Source: Nonomuraea muscovyensis (lineage in GTDB: Bacteria; Actinomycetota; Actinomycetes; Streptosporangiales; Streptosporangiaceae). Taken from it: DNA of 64,000 nucleotides. The position numbers and the translations under genes are program-made. The stretch is taken from positions 868,001 through 932,000 of the forward strand of contig NZ_JACHJB010000003.1 in NCBI RefSeq assembly GCF_014207745.1, in the 5' to 3' direction. Under the pieces are notes generated by a model that did no database searches, was not told the DNA's origin, and was given only the letters and a program-made list of their open reading frames with translations. Of this stretch, positions 18,160 to 49,936 are shown piece by piece (the first letter of the stretch is position 1; every line of letters begins with the position of its first letter).

Positions 18160-19557
18160 TCAGCGTACGACGATGAAGTCGTCCGGCTCCCTGGGCGGGC
18201 GCTGACGGGGCGGGGCGGCGGCGTGGCCCACCGCGACGCAGCCCATCGGGTCCCACGAGCCGGGCAGCTCCAGCACCTCACGCACCACCGGGCGGCAGAA
18301 CATCGTGGACGACACCCACGCCGAGCCGAGCCCCTCGACGGCGAGCTGGATCAGGAGGTTCTCGACGCCCGCGCCCGTCGCGACCACGAACATCTCCCGC
18401 TCGGAGGCGTTGCGCCGGTCGTCGCGGTAGGTGTGGGAGCCCTCCATCACCAGGCACGGAACCACGAGGTAGGGGGCTTTGCGCAGCACGTCGCCGCGTT
18501 TGATCCGCTTGGCGATCGACTGCTCGGTGAACCCGTCGCCGCGCAGGTCGGCGATCCACGCCTCGCGCATCGCGTCGAGCAGCCTCAGCCGCGTCTGCGC
18601 CGACTCGACCAGCACGAACCGCCACGGAGTCGTGTGGTGCGGGGCCGGGGCGGCGATGCCCGCCGCGACCGCCCGCCGCACCGCCGCCGGGTCCACGGGC
18701 TCGTCGGAGAACTCGCGGATCGTACGGCGGGCGAACACCACGTCGCGCGACCCGAAGCGGAACATGTCCTCGCCGGGCGGCCGCACCAGCGGCCGGACCC
18801 CCGGCCCGTCGTCGTCGGTCACCAGGTGTGCCAGCCCCCGCACGACGGCGACCGGGACGCCCGTGAGCTTGCCCTTGACCAGCTCGGCGGCCGAGGCGAT
18901 CTCGTCGGCCAGGGCGGTCACGGTGGCGTTGAGCGGGTTGCCGTGTGTGTCGCTGAGCCCGCGGAAGTCCTCCAGCGGGAGCACACCGGCCGCGCCGATG
19001 GCGACGTCGATCAGCCCGTGCCGCCAGGGCCGGCCGAAGGTGTCGGAGACGATCACGCCGACCCGGGCCGGGAGCGCGGCCCGGACCCGCCGGGCGGAGG
19101 CGTCGGCGTCCTCGGGCAGCAGCAGGACGGTGCCGGGGTCGGTGTTGGAGGCGTCGACACCGGCCGCCGCCATCACGAACCCGTGGCGGGTCTCGGAGAT
19201 GACCGTGTCGCCGCGCCGGGCGACGACCCGCACGGTCTCGTCCTCGATCGCCGCCAGGCGGTCGGGCGCGTTCCGCACGCGGCCCTCAGCCTTGCTCACG
19301 ATCTTGGAGGTGATGACGACGATGTCGCCGTCGCGCAGATCGGCGTCCTTGAGCAGGGCCGCGAGGTCGTCGCCGGGTCGCACCTCGCCGAGGCCCGTGA
19401 CCGGAATCACCTCCACCCGCTCGGGCGGCACGGCACCGCTCCCTCCATCGGGCCGGGCGACGAGCCCGGCCCCGGTTCCGGCACCGGTCCCTGCTGAGGA
19501 ACCGGACGTGGAGCCGGATGCGGGGGCGGGCGCGGCGTCGGGGGTGTGGTCGGTCAT
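18160..19557 (-). CDS. fbiB: F420-0:gamma-glutamyl ligase/nitroreductase-domain fusion
   Basis: A 465-residue two-domain enzyme that adds gamma-linked glutamates to F420-0; the C-terminal FMN-type domain (as in mycobacterial FbiB) is implicated in dehydro-F420-0 reduction. The N-terminal CofE half includes [17 protein letters not shown] and [23 protein letters not shown]. From about residue 260 a nitroreductase fold starts with [17 protein letters not shown] and ends [12 protein letters not shown]. The first 45 residues are Ser/Gly/Thr/Ala-rich and low complexity. ATG at 19557 overlaps the fbiA stop by four bases (ATGA), so the pair is translationally coupled. Downstream lies the divergent LPMO promoter, and the -35 of the LPMO is just past this stop. 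Confidence 0.96.
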
Positions 19558-20492
19558 CGGGCCAGCTCCAGTGCGAGGTCGAGGGCGGCGCGGGCGATGT
19601 CGGCCGCGGCGTCGGCATCGTGCATGAGGATCGGCCGGGCCACCACCCGGACGCCGTCCAGCCGGACCCCGTCGTCCTCGGGCGCCACCAGCCAGCCGTC
19701 GACCAGCTCGGCGCCGTAGAGGCCGAGCACCGCCTGAGCCGTGGTCTCGACGCCGATGGCCGTCAGGCAGGCGTCGGCCATGCCGCGCACGGGGGCGCCG
19801 CCGATGATGGGGGAGACGCCCACGACCGTCTTGGGCAGCAGCGCCTCGCGGATGCCGGGCACCTGGAGGATCGTGCCGATGCTCACCACCGGGTTGGACG
19901 GCGGCAGGATCACCACGTCGGCCTCCTCGATCGCCTCCAGGACACCGGGGGCCGGCTTGGCGGTGTCGGCGCCGACCAGGGCGAACGACTCGGCCGGCAC
20001 CGAGGCGCGCAGCCGGACCCACCACTCCTGGAAGTGGACCGCGCGCCGCCCCTGCTCGTCGGAGATCACCACGTGCGTCTCGCAGCGGTCGTCGCTCATC
20101 GGCAGCAGGCGGACCCCGGGCTGCCAGCGGGCGCACAGCGCCTCGGTGATCTGGGAGAGCGGGTAGCCGGCCTCCAGCATCTGCGAGCGGACGATGTGGG
20201 TGGCGAAGTCGCGGTCGCCCAGCCCGAACCACTGCGGCTCCACGCCGTAGGCCGCCAGCTCCTCCTTGACGACGTGCGACTCCTTGGCGCGGCCCCAGCC
20301 CTGGTCCTCGTCGATGCCGCCGCCCAGGGTGTACATGACCGTGTCGAGGTCGGGGCAGACCCGCAGGCCGAACAGGGTGATGTCGTCGCCCGTGTTGCCG
20401 ATCACGGTGATCCGGGCGTCGGGGGCCGTCGCGCGCAGGCCGCGCAGGAAGCGGGCGCCGCCGATGCCGCCGGCGAGGGACACGATGTGCAT
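19554..20492 (-). CDS. fbiA: 2-phospho-L-lactate/enolpyruvyl transferase (CofD family)
   Basis: A 312-residue enzyme transferring the phosphoenolpyruvyl/lactyl-guanylate moiety onto FO to give (dehydro) F420-0. It begins [19 protein letters not shown], the Gly-rich GDP-binding start of Cof[26 protein letters not shown] and [19 protein letters not shown] are further family signatures. ATG at 20492 was preferred over a longer in-frame start at 20630 because family members begin at this residue. It is first in the fbiA-fbiB operon and overlaps fbiB by four bases. Together with fbiC it covers most of F420 synthesis, but not the guanylyltransferase FbiD. Confidence 0.96.
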
Positions 20493-20674
20493 GCGGCCCA
20501 GTCTTCCACCGGCCTGCGACAACTTCTTTCCGGGACCCTCTTGCCCTGAAATTTCGGGCTTTGAGGGTTGAAACTCGTGCCTTTGGGGAACGAGAGGTTT
20601 TTGTGACTTGTGCCGCCTAAGGGCGGTCATGTGGCAAACTCCCTTCGGGCTAAAGGGTTCCCTGGGGAGTGGTT

Positions 20675-23002
20675 GTGAGCAAACTTGACGTCGACCGGCT
20701 CAAGGAGCCGGCCGCCTGGCTGATGGTGGCCGCGGGCGGGCTGAGCGTGCTGCTGGCGACGGGCAGGGTCTTGATCGGCTCTTCGTCGGGCATCGGCCGC
20801 AGCCTGTCCATCGCGGACCGCGCCGCGACCAACTTCTTCAGCCTCACCAGCCCGGTGACGGTGGCGCTGCTGCTGGGTGCCGTGCTCCTGGTGACCAAGG
20901 TGGGGCAGCCGTCCCCGAAGGCCAAGATCGTCACGTTCGGCGCGGTGGGCGGGCTCGGCCTCGCCACGGTGTTCGGCGCCCTGTCGCTGCTGCTCGGGCT
21001 GTTCGCGGGCCGCGGCGTGTGGTCCACGTTCGAGTTCCTGCTGAGTGGCGTGCCCCTGCTCGGCCTGACCGCCGTGGCCCTGGTCTACCTGTTGCCGCAG
21101 GTTCTGAGCGCGCGCCCCGCGTCCGGTCCGGGTTACGGCCCGGGCGCCCCGTACGGCCAGCAGGCGCAGTACGGGCAGGCTCCGGGCGCCCCGTACGGCC
21201 AGCAGGCCGACTACGCCCCGCAGGCCGGCTACGGCCAGCACCCTCCCGGCCAGGCCCCCTACGGCCAGCACCCCGGCTACGGACAGCCCGTCGAGGGCCA
21301 GCACCCGGGCTTCGCCCAGCAGTCCGGCGAGGGCCGGCAGCCCGGTTACGGCCAGCCGGACGAGGCCCAGCCCGGGTTCGGCCAGACCGGCGGCGAGGGT
21401 CCCGGGTTCGGCCAGCCGGGTGCGCCCCAGCCCGGGTTCGGCCAGGCCGGTGACGGTCAGCAGCCCGGCTACGGCCAGGCCGGTGACGGTCAGCAGCCCG
21501 GCTACGGCCAGCCTGGCGAGGGCCGGCAGCCCCAGCCACGGACGCCCCAGCCCCGTGCCGCCCTCCCCGCCGCTCCCGGTGACAGCAAGACCGACCCCGG
21601 CTACGGCGAACCCGCCATCCCCGGCTTCGCCCAGCCGGATCCGTCCTTCCCCCAGGCGGATCCGTCCTTCGCCCAGCCGGACCAGGGCTTCGGCCAGACG
21701 AACCCCACCCAGGCCGTCCCCGCCCAGCACGACCAGCAGGGCTTCGGCCAGCCCGCCCCGATCGACCAGCAGGGCTTCGGCCAGCCCGCTCAGCCCGACT
21801 ACGGGCAGCAGCCCCCCGGCCAGGCCGACCCCGGCTACGGCCAGGCCACCCCGGCCGACCAGGGTTTCGGCCAGAGCGTGTCCGCTGACCAGGGCTTCGG
21901 TCAGACGAACCCCACCCAGTCCTTCCGCGCCCAGAACGACCAGCAGGCGTTCGGCCGGCCGACCCCGGCCCACGGGTCGTACACGCCCGCGGAGACCCAG
22001 CCCGACGCCGGGCACCAGCCGGCCGCCGAGTACCAGCCCGCTCCCTACGTCCCCGCCGACAGCCAGCCGAGCGTGTACGGCCAGCCCTCCTACTCCACGG
22101 CCGACTCCCAGCCCAACCTCTACGCCCCGGCCGACACCCACCCGGCCGGCGGCTACCCGCCCTCGGCCGACTCCCAGGCCGACCCCTACGCGCCACCCGC
22201 CCCCCAGCCCGGCGCCTACACCCCGCTCGACGCCCAGTACCAGCCGTCGCAGCCCCCGTACACCTCCCAGGACAGCGGCCCGTACGTGCCGCCGATCGTC
22301 CAGCCGAACGCCTTCAACGCCCCGGCGTCGGGCGGCTACCCGAGCGGCGAGACCGCGCCCAGCGTGCCGTTCCCCCCGTCCCCCCAGCAGGCTGACCAGC
22401 AGCAGGGCGGACAGCCGTTCACCGGCTACTCGGGCCACGAGTTCGCCACCCCGGCCTACCAAGAGCCCGACCCGCCCGTGGACCCGCGCTCCCAGCAGCT
22501 CCACGACGCCTACCAGCAGGCCGAGACCTACCAGCACTCCACCGGCCAGCACTCCTCGGGCCAGCACTCGGCGCAGCCGGAGCTGCGGGTGCCCGACTAC
22601 CCGAGTCAGCCGCAGGCCGCGCCGCACGAGAACCCGTTCGGCCACGCCCAGCAGCAGGCGCAGCCCCAGTACGGTGGCCAGCCCCAGTACGGGCAGCCGC
22701 CGAGCGGCGCGCACCACGCCGGCGGCACGCAGGCCGAGCAGTTCGGCCAGCAGCAGTACGGCCGGCCGGCCTCCGCGCCGGGCCAGTACGGCCAGTCGTA
22801 CGAGCCCCAGCCGGCCCCCTACGAGCCGCAGCCCTACCAGCAGCAGCCCCCGTCGTCCGGCTGGGAGCCGCAGGCGGAGTCGACGGTCCGGCTCGACCCG
22901 GAGTCCTACCGCAGCGGCGACGCGCTCGGTGAGCAGCGGCGCGACGGGGACGACCCGATCGACCCCACAGCCATATACACCCCCAACGAGCCGCGCCGGT
23001 AA
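20675..23002 (+). CDS. Four-TM membrane protein with long Gln/Pro/Gly/Tyr-rich disordered tail
   Basis: A 775-residue protein I do not recognise by name. Residues 1-145 contain four hydrophobic segments with short loops ([21 protein letters not shown], then [13 protein letters not shown] and so on). The remaining 630 residues are low-complexity: first [14 protein letters not shown]-type repeats, then an Asp/Ala/Tyr/Pro/Gln-rich stretch. The composition resembles prion-like, Tyr-Gly-Gln-rich domains known to phase-separate in eukaryotes, though that is only an analogy. GTG at 20675 is favoured over 20669 because GGGGAG sits at the right distance. It lies between fbiA (divergent) and whiB. No catalytic residues are visible. 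Confidence 0.75.
21441..21506 (+). repeat. Perfect 33-bp tandem duplication in the low-complexity tail
   Basis: The 33-bp unit at 21441-21473 recurs without change at 21474-21506. It encodes an [11 protein letters not shown]-type repeat within the protein at 20675-23002. Identity at synonymous positions suggests recent expansion. Confidence 0.9.
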
Positions 23003-23322
23003 CGAACCGGCAAAGCAGGGCTAGAGAGAAGGTGGGCCACGGGCGGGCGTCTATACCGCCCTGGTACGGTTCCGACCGCTGACAGCGTTGAACACGCCAG
23101 GCCAACGCCATGGATCCCGTGGCGCCGGGTCAGGTGCGAACATCACATGCCGAGCACACCGGGGCGAGAGCTGGTCTTTCCCCGGATAGCGGCATGCCGC
23201 TTGACGCCGCGTACAACACGCGCGTGTAATTACAACCATGTTGTTACGCCTTCTCTTGGGTGGGTAATAAGGAAGGCGTCCATGGGGGGCTCCATTGCGG
23301 GCGGGCGGCAGGGAGGTGTGCA
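23003..23322. other. 320-bp intergenic region upstream of whiB
   Basis: No gene seen. It contains a short GGGCGG...CCGCCC hairpin at about 23041-23061, a candidate promoter at 23201-23230, and ACAAC-CAT-GTTGT dyad bases just downstream. A long untranslated leader for whiB is likely. Confidence 0.5.
23201..23230 (+). promoter_or_regulatory. Candidate whiB promoter with embedded palindrome
   Basis: TTGACG (23201-23206), an 18-base spacer and TGTAAT (23225-23230). The 12-bp perfect palindrome ACACGCGCGTGT (23216-23227) overlaps the spacer and -10, so a bound regulator would block it. Confidence 0.45.
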
Positions 23323-23583
23323 GTGACCGATCTGGTCATCGCACAGGATCAGCTTGACGCTGAAGAACTCGGATGGCAGGAGCGCGCCCTGTGCGCGCAG
23401 ACTGATCCGGAGGCGTTCTTCCCGGAGAAGGGCGGCTCCACCCGAGAGGCCAAGAAGGTCTGCCGATCGTGCGAAGTCCGTGCCGAGTGCCTGGAATACG
23501 CGCTTGAGCACGATGAGCGGTTCGGCATCTGGGGTGGGTTGTCAGAACGGGAGCGCAGACGGATCAAGCGCGAGGCCGTCTAA
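23323..23583 (+). CDS. whiB: WhiB-family iron-sulfur transcription factor (WhiB/WhmD type)
   Basis: An 86-residue protein with the four cluster-binding cysteines Cys24, Cys47, Cys50 and Cys56 (C...CxxC.....C), the turn FGIWGGLSE, and the basic tail RERRRIKREAV that contacts DNA. The core WQERALCAQTDPEAFFPEKG is that of WhiB of Streptomyces and WhiB2/WhmD of mycobacteria, required for septation and sporulation. Related Wbl proteins act with region 4 of the primary sigma factor. GTG at 23323 was taken because AGGGAGG lies upstream. Position between fbiA and an Rv3259-like gene matches Rv3260c synteny. Confidence 0.95.
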   Translation: MTDLVIAQDQLDAEELGWQERALCAQTDPEAFFPEKGGSTREAKKVCRSCEVRAECLEYALEHDERFGIWGGLSERERRRIKREAV

Positions 23584-48651: not shown

Positions 48652-49276
48652 AAAGGATTACGGTCACGTTGGGTAAAGAGGGTGGCGGCCGCAACCCTCA
48701 CCATGGGGTCACATCTCACTACCCAGTGTGCAGGATGATCGCAGATCAAGAGGGGCTCATCACCTGGGCATAGCCCTTGGCCGACCCTTAACTGGGACAT
48801 CCTTCACCCCTGTCACACCCTTGGGAAATCACGGAAAGTGATCCTTTGGGCAATCCGCAAGCTGACATTCGGGTCCGATCCGGATAGCGTTCTGACATGG
48901 CACCCGTTCGGGTCCGTGGTTGCGCAGGGCCGGGAGTCCCGGCTCTGCAAGCCGATGCCAGCCGCAGGCGAAACGGCCCACGTAAGGCGACTCTTCGTCG
49001 ATCGATCACGGTGCGGCTTAGGGGTAAGTCCTGCCTTCCCGAGGGTCCAGATGTCCCTCGTCAGAAGAGAAGGCCAGTAGTGGCGACAGAGCTGCGAAAG
49101 CCTCAGCAGGCGGATGTGGGGTCGAAGACCAGGTCGGCCGAACGGGTGCCACCCGAGATCCCGGTGATGAAACGTCGGAGAGGGGAACGGTGACAGAGAG
49201 GAAGACAGAAGACCCCGCCCGGCGGGCGCGTCGTCGGGCGCTCTTTCTCAGTCGTTAGACGAAGGGGGGCTGTTGC
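48652..49276. other. 625-bp region upstream of hpf
   Basis: No convincing protein gene. A 37-codon in-frame GTG ORF (49080-49193) with a weak GAAGG upstream is possible. A candidate promoter lies at 48862-48890 and the dyad ATCAC-N5-GTGAT at 48829-48842. An untranslated leader of about 390 bases would follow if that promoter is used. No known riboswitch recognised. Confidence 0.5.
48862..48890 (+). promoter_or_regulatory. Candidate hpf promoter
   Basis: CTGACA (48862-48867), a 17-base spacer and TAGCGT (48885-48890). An ATCAC/GTGAT dyad lies 20 bases upstream of the -35. Confidence 0.4.
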
Positions 49277-49936
49277 ATGGACATCATCGTCAAGGGCCGG
49301 CACACCGGAGTGAGTGAGCGGTTCCGCGACCACGTGACGACCAAGCTGGCCAGGATCGAGCGTCTGGATAGCAAGCTCATTCGAGTCGATGTGGAGGTGT
49401 CGAAGGAGCGCAACCCGCGCCTCGCCGGGCAGCGAGAGCGTGTCGAGCTGACCATTCACTCCCGAGGTCCGGCCATCAGGGCCGAAGCGTCCGCGGACGA
49501 CCGGTTCGCCGCCCTCGACATCGCCCTCGACAAACTCGAGGGACGCCTGCGCAGGCTCGCCGACCGGCGCAAGGTTCACCACGGCAACCACTGCCCGCCC
49601 TCCGTGGCGGAGCTCACCGCGACGCTACCCGACGTCGACCTCCCGCCCCGGAAGGCCACGCTGGTCCCCGAGCCGGCCGAGTCCGAAGAGGACCAGTTCC
49701 CCGACGACAAGCAGTACGACGACATCGTCCCGATCGAGATGGACGGCGACGGGCCGCTCATCGTGCGAGAGAAGTTCCACAAGGCGGAACCCATGACCAT
49801 CGACCAGGCCCTCCTCGAGATGGAGCTGGTCGGACACGACTTCTACCTGTTCCGTGACAAGGAGAGCGGCCAGCCGTCGGTGGTCTACAACCGGCGCGGC
49901 TACAACTACGGCGTGTTGCGGCTCGTCGAGCCCTGA
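49277..49936 (+). CDS. hpf: Ribosome hibernation-promoting factor, long form
   Basis: A 219-residue protein that joins 70S ribosomes into inactive dimers in slow growth. The N-terminal domain (residues 1-105) is the HPF/RaiA S30AE fold: MDIIVKGRHTGVSERFRDHV, then AEASADDRFAALDIALDKLEGRLRR. The acidic linker is residues 125-160. The C-terminal dimerisation domain has IVREKFHKAEPMTIDQALLEMELVGHDFYLFRD and the final YNRRGYNYGVLRL. ATG at 49277 has GAAGGGGGG upstream. It lies next to a LuxR-type regulator and near secA, as in other actinobacteria. Confidence 0.96.
   Translation: MDIIVKGRHTGVSERFRDHVTTKLARIERLDSKLIRVDVEVSKERNPRLAGQRERVELTIHSRGPAIRAEASADDRFAALDIALDKLEGRLRRLADRRKVHHGNHCPPSVAELTATLPDVDLPPRKATLVPEPAESEEDQFPDDKQYDDIVPIEMDGDGPLIVREKFHKAEPMTIDQALLEMELVGHDFYLFRDKESGQPSVVYNRRGYNYGVLRLVEP

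Follow-up and report, generated by a model that had tools for sequence, protein, structure and literature searches.

The locus and its coding sequence

The window, a stretch of 64,000 nucleotides of Nonomuraea muscovyensis DNA, contains a gene, called X below, that encodes a four-helix membrane domain followed by a long tail (Table 1). The initial annotation had described a membrane protein with four membrane segments and a long, probably disordered tail, placed between fbiA and whiB, and its start and stop positions for the reading frame were right. The description is supported as well, since hydropathy marks hydrophobic segments in residues 1-145 and the AlphaFold2 model has four helices. 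The sequence GGGGAG at 20664-20669 ends 5 nt ahead of the GTG start codon, and an in-frame GTG at 20669 is a second possible start.

Table 1. Position of X, its parts and its neighbours in the window
Feature	Position	Strand	Basis or remark
fbiA/cofD, divergent neighbour	19557..20492	-	PF01933, E 2.4e-58
Promoter-like element TGTGGCAAACTC	20630..20641	+	conserved upstream of X
X coding sequence	20675..23002	+	775 aa; GTG start at 20675, stop ends at 23002
Four-helix membrane domain, residues 2-145	20678..21109	+	hydropathy; AlphaFold2 model; conserved R/L/P/A/W columns
Repeat-rich spacer, residues 146-440	21110..21994	+	PGYGQ-like units
Exact tandem duplication, 33-nt period	21439..21511	+	40-nt exact repeat, copies start at 21439 and 21472
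Tail island 1, residues 576-593	22400..22453	+	median z 5.8, 20 tails from other genera
Tail island 2, residues 601-624	22475..22546	+	z 6.0; predicted helix at residues 604-622
Tail island 3, residues 733-747	22871..22915	+	z 5.5
Tail island 4, C-terminal residues 756-775	22940..22999	+	z 7.6
whiB, downstream neighbour	23260..23583	+	PF02467, E 1.4e-27

X matches no Pfam family at E ≤ 1 and no NCBIfam model, and its own genome contains no paralogue at E ≤ 1e-3. Weak Pfam matches of single members of the family were dismissed as chance because they are scattered over 49 families (55 members); the best were to DUF4079 (E 0.0011, one of 55 members) and to a phage holin (E 0.002, two of 55).

The promoter-like element, with the core TGTG..AAACT or close to it, is found 40-65 nt before the start codon and is presumably the extended -10 of X. 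A first pattern detected it in 77 of 81 loci (the window and the best 80 of 123), and a pattern that was relaxed after the misses of the first had been inspected detected it in 80, compared with 7 of 16,200 shuffled sequences. Conservation extends beyond the -10-like core in many genera, as a block at 20595-20641 of the form GAGGTTnnTGGGTC...CCGAC...GTC that is occasionally palindromic; the block is possibly a regulator site.

A shared regulon was considered and rejected, as the promoter-like pattern was present solely upstream of X (four of ten genomes) and nowhere else; the pattern used in that search misfits the spacing of the window's own element and gave no match in its own genome. A hairpin beside the promoter was rejected too, with a perfect stem of at least 4 nt in 29 of 77 element-bearing loci, at varying places. 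Searches at Rfam gathering scores revealed no structured RNA in the leader of X. Elsewhere in the window, a raiA RNA (RF03072; 156.7 bits, E 3.1e-39) is located at 48903-49146 on the plus strand. An ORF that starts with MDIIVKGRHTGVSERF near 49278, about 130 bp further downstream, resembles a ribosome hibernation factor.

Membrane domain

The helices of the membrane domain span approximately residues 6-34, 46-74 (kinked), 83-109 and 115-144. Helix 1 begins with LKEPAAW in X and mostly with LREPAAW in its relatives. An alignment of 55 sequences, consisting of the window protein and 54 of 66 other extracted proteins picked by hand, gave an AlphaFold2 model with a mean pLDDT of 94.2 and a pTM of 0.86. 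Three of 40 fetched loci (L049, L057 and L064) had no tblastn hit and were excluded from the alignment.

Positively charged residues are unevenly distributed, with a mean K+R of 2.7 in the N-terminus and 1.8 in loop 2 compared with 0.13 in loop 1 and 0.05 in loop 3. By the positive-inside rule, this distribution would place both ends of X, and thus the tail, in the cytosol.

Foldseek returned no known fold for the membrane domain below E 0.5, and VIA-align returned generic helical bundles, with designed proteins on top and a best Z of 11.7. This absence of clear relatives does not make the fold new.

Distribution and gene neighbourhood

Of 150 genomes sampled from the order, 149 contain the membrane domain according to a profile search, and 38 of 39 genera are represented; with a single sequence as the query the number of genomes was 110. 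Among 296 genomes sampled across the class there were 35 matches, 31 within the order and four outside it, in a search that scored at most 13 candidates per genome and leaves absence outside the order unproven. Of the four outside matches, two have poor scores (E 2e-6 and 2e-4), and the poorest of all (L248) seems to be no relative. One outside genome (G235) has an X-like gene divergent from fbiA, with DPTQAI and TQPF peptides at the end of the tail. A search with RLR[EG]PAAWx[ML] as its seed gave 123 loci, and the 80 best of them make up the named loci; Nonomuraea is the commonest genus in that search, along with Herbidospora, Microbispora, Streptosporangium, Planomonospora, Sphaerisporangium, Actinomadura and others.

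Gene order is conserved in these 80 loci. The arrangement fbiA(-) X(+) whiB(+) is seen in 75, fbiA is the divergent neighbour in 79, and in four loci that lack whiB the contig ends there. In Embleya scabrispora (L174, 3950-4726) a protein resembling X has a short tail with little Gln, and neither fbiA nor whiB is present within 8.3 kb around the gene; the ORF upstream of it resembles a sigma factor.

The region up to 1.5 kb upstream of fbiA was surveyed with tblastn and a hydropathy count in the 30 best-scoring fbiA loci, 10 within the order and 20 outside. Within the order, tblastn missed X in three loci, where hydropathy showed an ORF with three to four segments. Outside the order, tblastn detected X within 1.5 kb upstream of fbiA in none of the 20 loci; in one of them (L229) that place is taken by another multi-helix ORF, open for 253 codons. 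The distance from fbiA to a whiB is at most 350 bp in four of these 20 loci and at most 1.5 kb in 11. Because whiB adjoins fbiA without X outside the order, X was probably either inserted into an old pair of genes in this lineage or lost from that pair in others. For the same reason the adjacency of whiB carries little weight, and the hint at sporulation or division that the initial annotation had seen in it is not borne out.

Composition and repeats of the tail

The tail of X comprises 630 amino acids with 18.1% P, 17.1% Q, 14.3% G, 11.6% A, 6.5% Y and 1.3% N, and its net charge is -40. The motif [YF]GQ occurs 23 times (2000 residue shuffles: mean 1.5, maximum 7) and PG[YF]GQ eight times (shuffles: maximum 2). 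No exact repeat in the DNA of the tail is longer than the 40-nt one at 33-nt spacing, which exceeds the maximum of 21 nt in 500 codon shuffles and contains the perfect 33-bp duplication reported in the initial annotation. That annotation was also correct about a tail of some 630 residues rich in Gln, Pro, Gly and Tyr, but the PGYGQ-like repeats it ascribed to the tail are mainly confined to residues 146-440, and the last approximately 200 residues contain conserved, non-repetitive motifs that it did not mention.

At least 40% Q+P+G+Y together with 8% Q over 150 aa was found in two of 342 genes in 464 kb of this genome, X included, the genes having been called by a crude GC3 rule that leaves some ORFs doubtful. 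When the PGYGQ region was compared with its own genome there was one other place of weak similarity (E 0.12, two overlapping rows), an ORF at G000:C1:2349198-2349746 (L252, L253) that is 491 codons open.

All 76 complete homologues in the 80 named loci have a tail, of 97-791 aa (median 548), so that the comparison of tail lengths proposed in the initial annotation did not reveal the tailless relatives that would have spoken against it. In one of the 76, L146 from Streptosporangium amethystogenes, the reading frame of the tail is lost, through sequencing error or real loss and apparently as in L008 and L047, and the out-of-frame ends are Arg-rich. L146 was left out of the composition medians and counted as lacking the tail motifs.

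The tail has been described as prion-like, which is a weak description. A prion-like composition is rich in Gln or Asn and poor in proline and in charge. The Gln content of X agrees with this, but the low Asn content, the high Pro content and the strong net charge do not, and Gln is not conserved across genera: it amounts to 7-9% in tails of Herbidospora, 15-22% in Nonomuraea and 28-36% in Actinomadura.

Aromatic residues are more constant. The group medians of Y+F lie between 9.0 and 10.9% (Nonomuraea, Herbidospora, Actinomadura and other Streptosporangiaceae) while the group median of Gln varies fourfold, and the sampled proteome has 4.4% Y+F. Among 611 segments of 150 aa, 16 were poor in aliphatic residues; four of these are from X, with 8.7-12% Y+F, and one of the remaining 12, a set that includes doubtful ORFs, reaches that level. 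In a refinement of the condensate idea of the initial annotation, the tyrosines and phenylalanines could act as stickers that drive two-dimensional phase separation at the membrane, making X a condensate scaffold that concentrates motif-bound clients. Phase separation has been reported for Rv1747, a membrane transporter that contains a disordered linker (PMC9312465). On the other hand, 18% Pro and a net charge of -40 disfavour prion-like assembly by the composition given above, the [YF]GQ repeats lack conservation, their median in Herbidospora being 0 per 100 aa, and the single Embleya tail, with 3.1% Y+F, is an exception to the group medians. Altogether we consider a condensate scaffold unlikely.

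Conserved islands in the tail

Comparison of the window tail with 20 tails of other genera identifies four islands, all after residue 575, whereas the repeat region stands out nowhere against shuffled tails. These z-scores draw on 39 of the 80 named loci, picked by hand. Among the 76 complete tails, the motif of island 1, [FY][TS]GYSG, is present in 27, that of island 2, AYQQA[EQ][STN]Y, in 68, a relaxed motif of island 3 in 49 and that of island 4, [DNA]P[TVI]AIY.P, in 69, compared with one in 15,200 shuffled tails; WY[GSR] is present in 51. The AYQQA and AIY motifs have chance-level matches only elsewhere in the same genome.

In an alignment of 37 sequences the invariant columns are D, R, QQ, AYQQA and Y, and P, AIY and P; as the tail of X was aligned with 36 others chosen from the 68 that have the AYQQA motif, only the AIY motif is independent of the selection. 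The AIY motif is followed by five residues in 20 of 20 Nonomuraea tails, by 30 in seven of seven from Herbidospora and by 31-41 in 42 other tails, except for three with five. AlphaFold2 gives the last 205 residues a mean pLDDT of 53.1 and a pTM of 0.23, and the sole confident helix there, at residues 604-622, coincides with AYQQA (pLDDT 88 and 82 in blocks of 10 residues).

The islands are not present in the whole family. Herbidospora (7/7) retains both the AYQQA and the AIY motif despite its low Gln content, with Val or Ile replacing the Thr of DPTAIY (7/7) and with island 3 in none of the seven. Both motifs are missing from Actinomadura (5/5), which ends in WYRDNRP instead and has no island above the threshold, and from the Embleya tail (1/1). 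Two relatives outside the order (L245 and L246) have tail ends with DPTQAIPR and TQ[RP]F peptides, which are perhaps equivalent, in a different order, to the DPTAIY and STVRLD islands.

Within the genus, four pairs show 65-88% identity in the membrane domain, 41-80% in the repeat region and 83-100% in islands 2 and 4. No part of X is conserved less than the Gln-rich repeats. The spacer is not simply neutral, because its dN/dS is 0.35-0.36 in two of the four pairs (0.93-0.94 in the other two). Within Nonomuraea, rough dN/dS values, from small sizes, are 0.35-1.26 for island 3, with no clear constraint, and 0.68 for island 4 in the closest pair.

Rapid change in length, repeats that resemble slippage products and the loss of frame in the L146 assembly, apparently also in L008 and L047, would agree with a tail that is tolerated, repeat-expanded junk behind a functional membrane domain. 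The conservation of motifs across genera and the presence of a tail in every complete named homologue make this most improbable.

Comparison with known systems

The same plan is known from the mycobacterial divisome protein Rv0954, which has four transmembrane helices, cytosolic ends (in X this is predicted from charge) and a Pro/Gln-rich C-terminal tail (PMC8093794). Rv0954 is located at mid-cell and interacts with LamA, PbpA and PknH, and its tail is phosphorylated, although phospho-variants keep their localisation and deletion of the gene gave no morphology phenotype (PMC8093794). Its authors proposed a role as scaffold or anchor and likened the tail to that of ZipA (PMC8093794). The two proteins differ in tail length, which is approximately 150 aa in Rv0954 (aa 155-303) and 630 in X, and in neighbours, since Rv0954 is in an operon with perM and X is found beside fbiA and whiB.

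We take Rv0954 to be a member of DUF5336 (PF17270). Membership of X in this family was rejected, as its Pfam search was empty up to the E-value limit given above. PF17270 has no match in the same genome, DUF5336 is absent from the 25 families listed of the 49 matched by the 55 members, and hhalign of the X membrane domain against DUF5336, with nine sequences on the DUF5336 side, gave a probability of 0.4% and E 0.15 over 24 columns.

A role of X in division can be proposed by analogy only. X would then be a functional equivalent of Rv0954 in division or polar growth, placed at the septum and recruiting wall-synthesis or kinase partners. The shared plan and the whiB gene immediately downstream are in line with this, but X has no detectable homology to DUF5336, rv0954 can be deleted without a change in morphology, and whiB adjacency is light evidence given the four outside loci in which whiB is close to fbiA without X. 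We find such an equivalence rather doubtful.

The conserved Thr residues in EST[MV]R[LF]D and DPTAIY might be sites for a Ser/Thr kinase, read by FHA proteins, so that the tail would be a phosphorylation platform. The PknA-dependent motif has acidic residues at -1 and -3 to -6, Pro at -1 and +2, Leu or Val at +3 and a basic residue at +4 (PMC7164672), and the preceding acidic residues, the Pro at -1 (DPTAIY) and the large hydrophobic residue at +3 in X resemble it loosely. The Rv0954 tail is phosphorylated, but its phospho-variants localise as before. Phospho-Thr at DPTAIY is weakened as a candidate by the Val or Ile of Herbidospora, which also lacks island 3, and island 3 is weak within the genus. 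We therefore judge a phosphorylation platform very unlikely.

Other membrane proteins share single aspects with X. The Pro/Gln-rich linker of ZipA in E. coli is proposed to extend into the cytoplasm and so find a partner there (PMC8093794). X is likewise a membrane protein with such a linker but differs in having four transmembrane helices, and the low-confidence model of its last 205 residues shows no folded domain at the C-terminus. ZipA does have a folded C-terminal domain. SepX of Streptomyces and GlpR of Corynebacterium are actinobacterial membrane proteins with cytosolic disorder, like X, but they are set apart by three transmembrane segments and two cytosolic disordered regions, where X has four helices and one tail. 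The Rv1747 ABC transporter of M. tuberculosis is also a membrane protein with a disordered cytosolic region; it is a transporter with FHA domains, whereas the Pfam search found no domain in X.

X as a putative membrane tether

With its observed anatomy, conservation and synteny, and with one confidently predicted helix in its otherwise unstructured last 205 residues, X has in our view an even chance of being a membrane tether, in which a variable spacer presents docking motifs to a putative cytosolic partner. The compact four-helix domain, with both ends inside, would anchor the protein, and a long, fast-evolving and flexible spacer would extend from it into the cytosol. Near the far end of the spacer, the short helix AYQQAExY and the peptide DPxAIYxP would dock to the partner, and X would thereby catch its target, a protein or complex of the cytosol, and concentrate it under the membrane. 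In this it would work like Rv0954 or ZipA, but without detectable homology to the family of Rv0954. We infer the docking, the tether function and the partner itself from these features; that the partner belongs to the machinery of septation or polar growth is speculative.

Docking through these motifs would not be family-wide, because Actinomadura and Embleya lack both. Herbidospora keeps them with little Gln, and therefore the conserved function seems to rest on the motifs, perhaps also on aromatic density, rather than on the Gln-rich repeats. A tether of this kind could also be combined with phase separation: X would be a membrane-anchored scaffold in which the aromatic-rich, disordered tail forms a two-dimensional condensate beneath the membrane of the hyphae, and clients would be addressed through AYQQAExY and DPxAIYxP. 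Such a lineage-specific scaffold would organise septation or tip growth throughout the order and would share no sequence relationship with the scaffolds known from mycobacteria and Streptomyces. This combination is improbable, more so than the condensate scaffold considered above.

No paper on the X family was found among the top-ranked open-licence full texts. What appears to be new is the family itself, together with its motifs and its conservation throughout the order; a membrane anchor with a Pro/Gln-rich disordered tail is already known from other proteins. Bacteria of the order Streptosporangiales are filamentous, often spore-forming and antibiotic-producing. The family is present in all but one of the 150 sampled genomes of this order, yet the member described here has no Pfam or NCBIfam match. 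Natural variation in X separates Gln content, which is variable, from aromatic density, which is kept in the larger groups, and from short motifs, which are kept in most members. This natural series could test which property of the tail carries its function.
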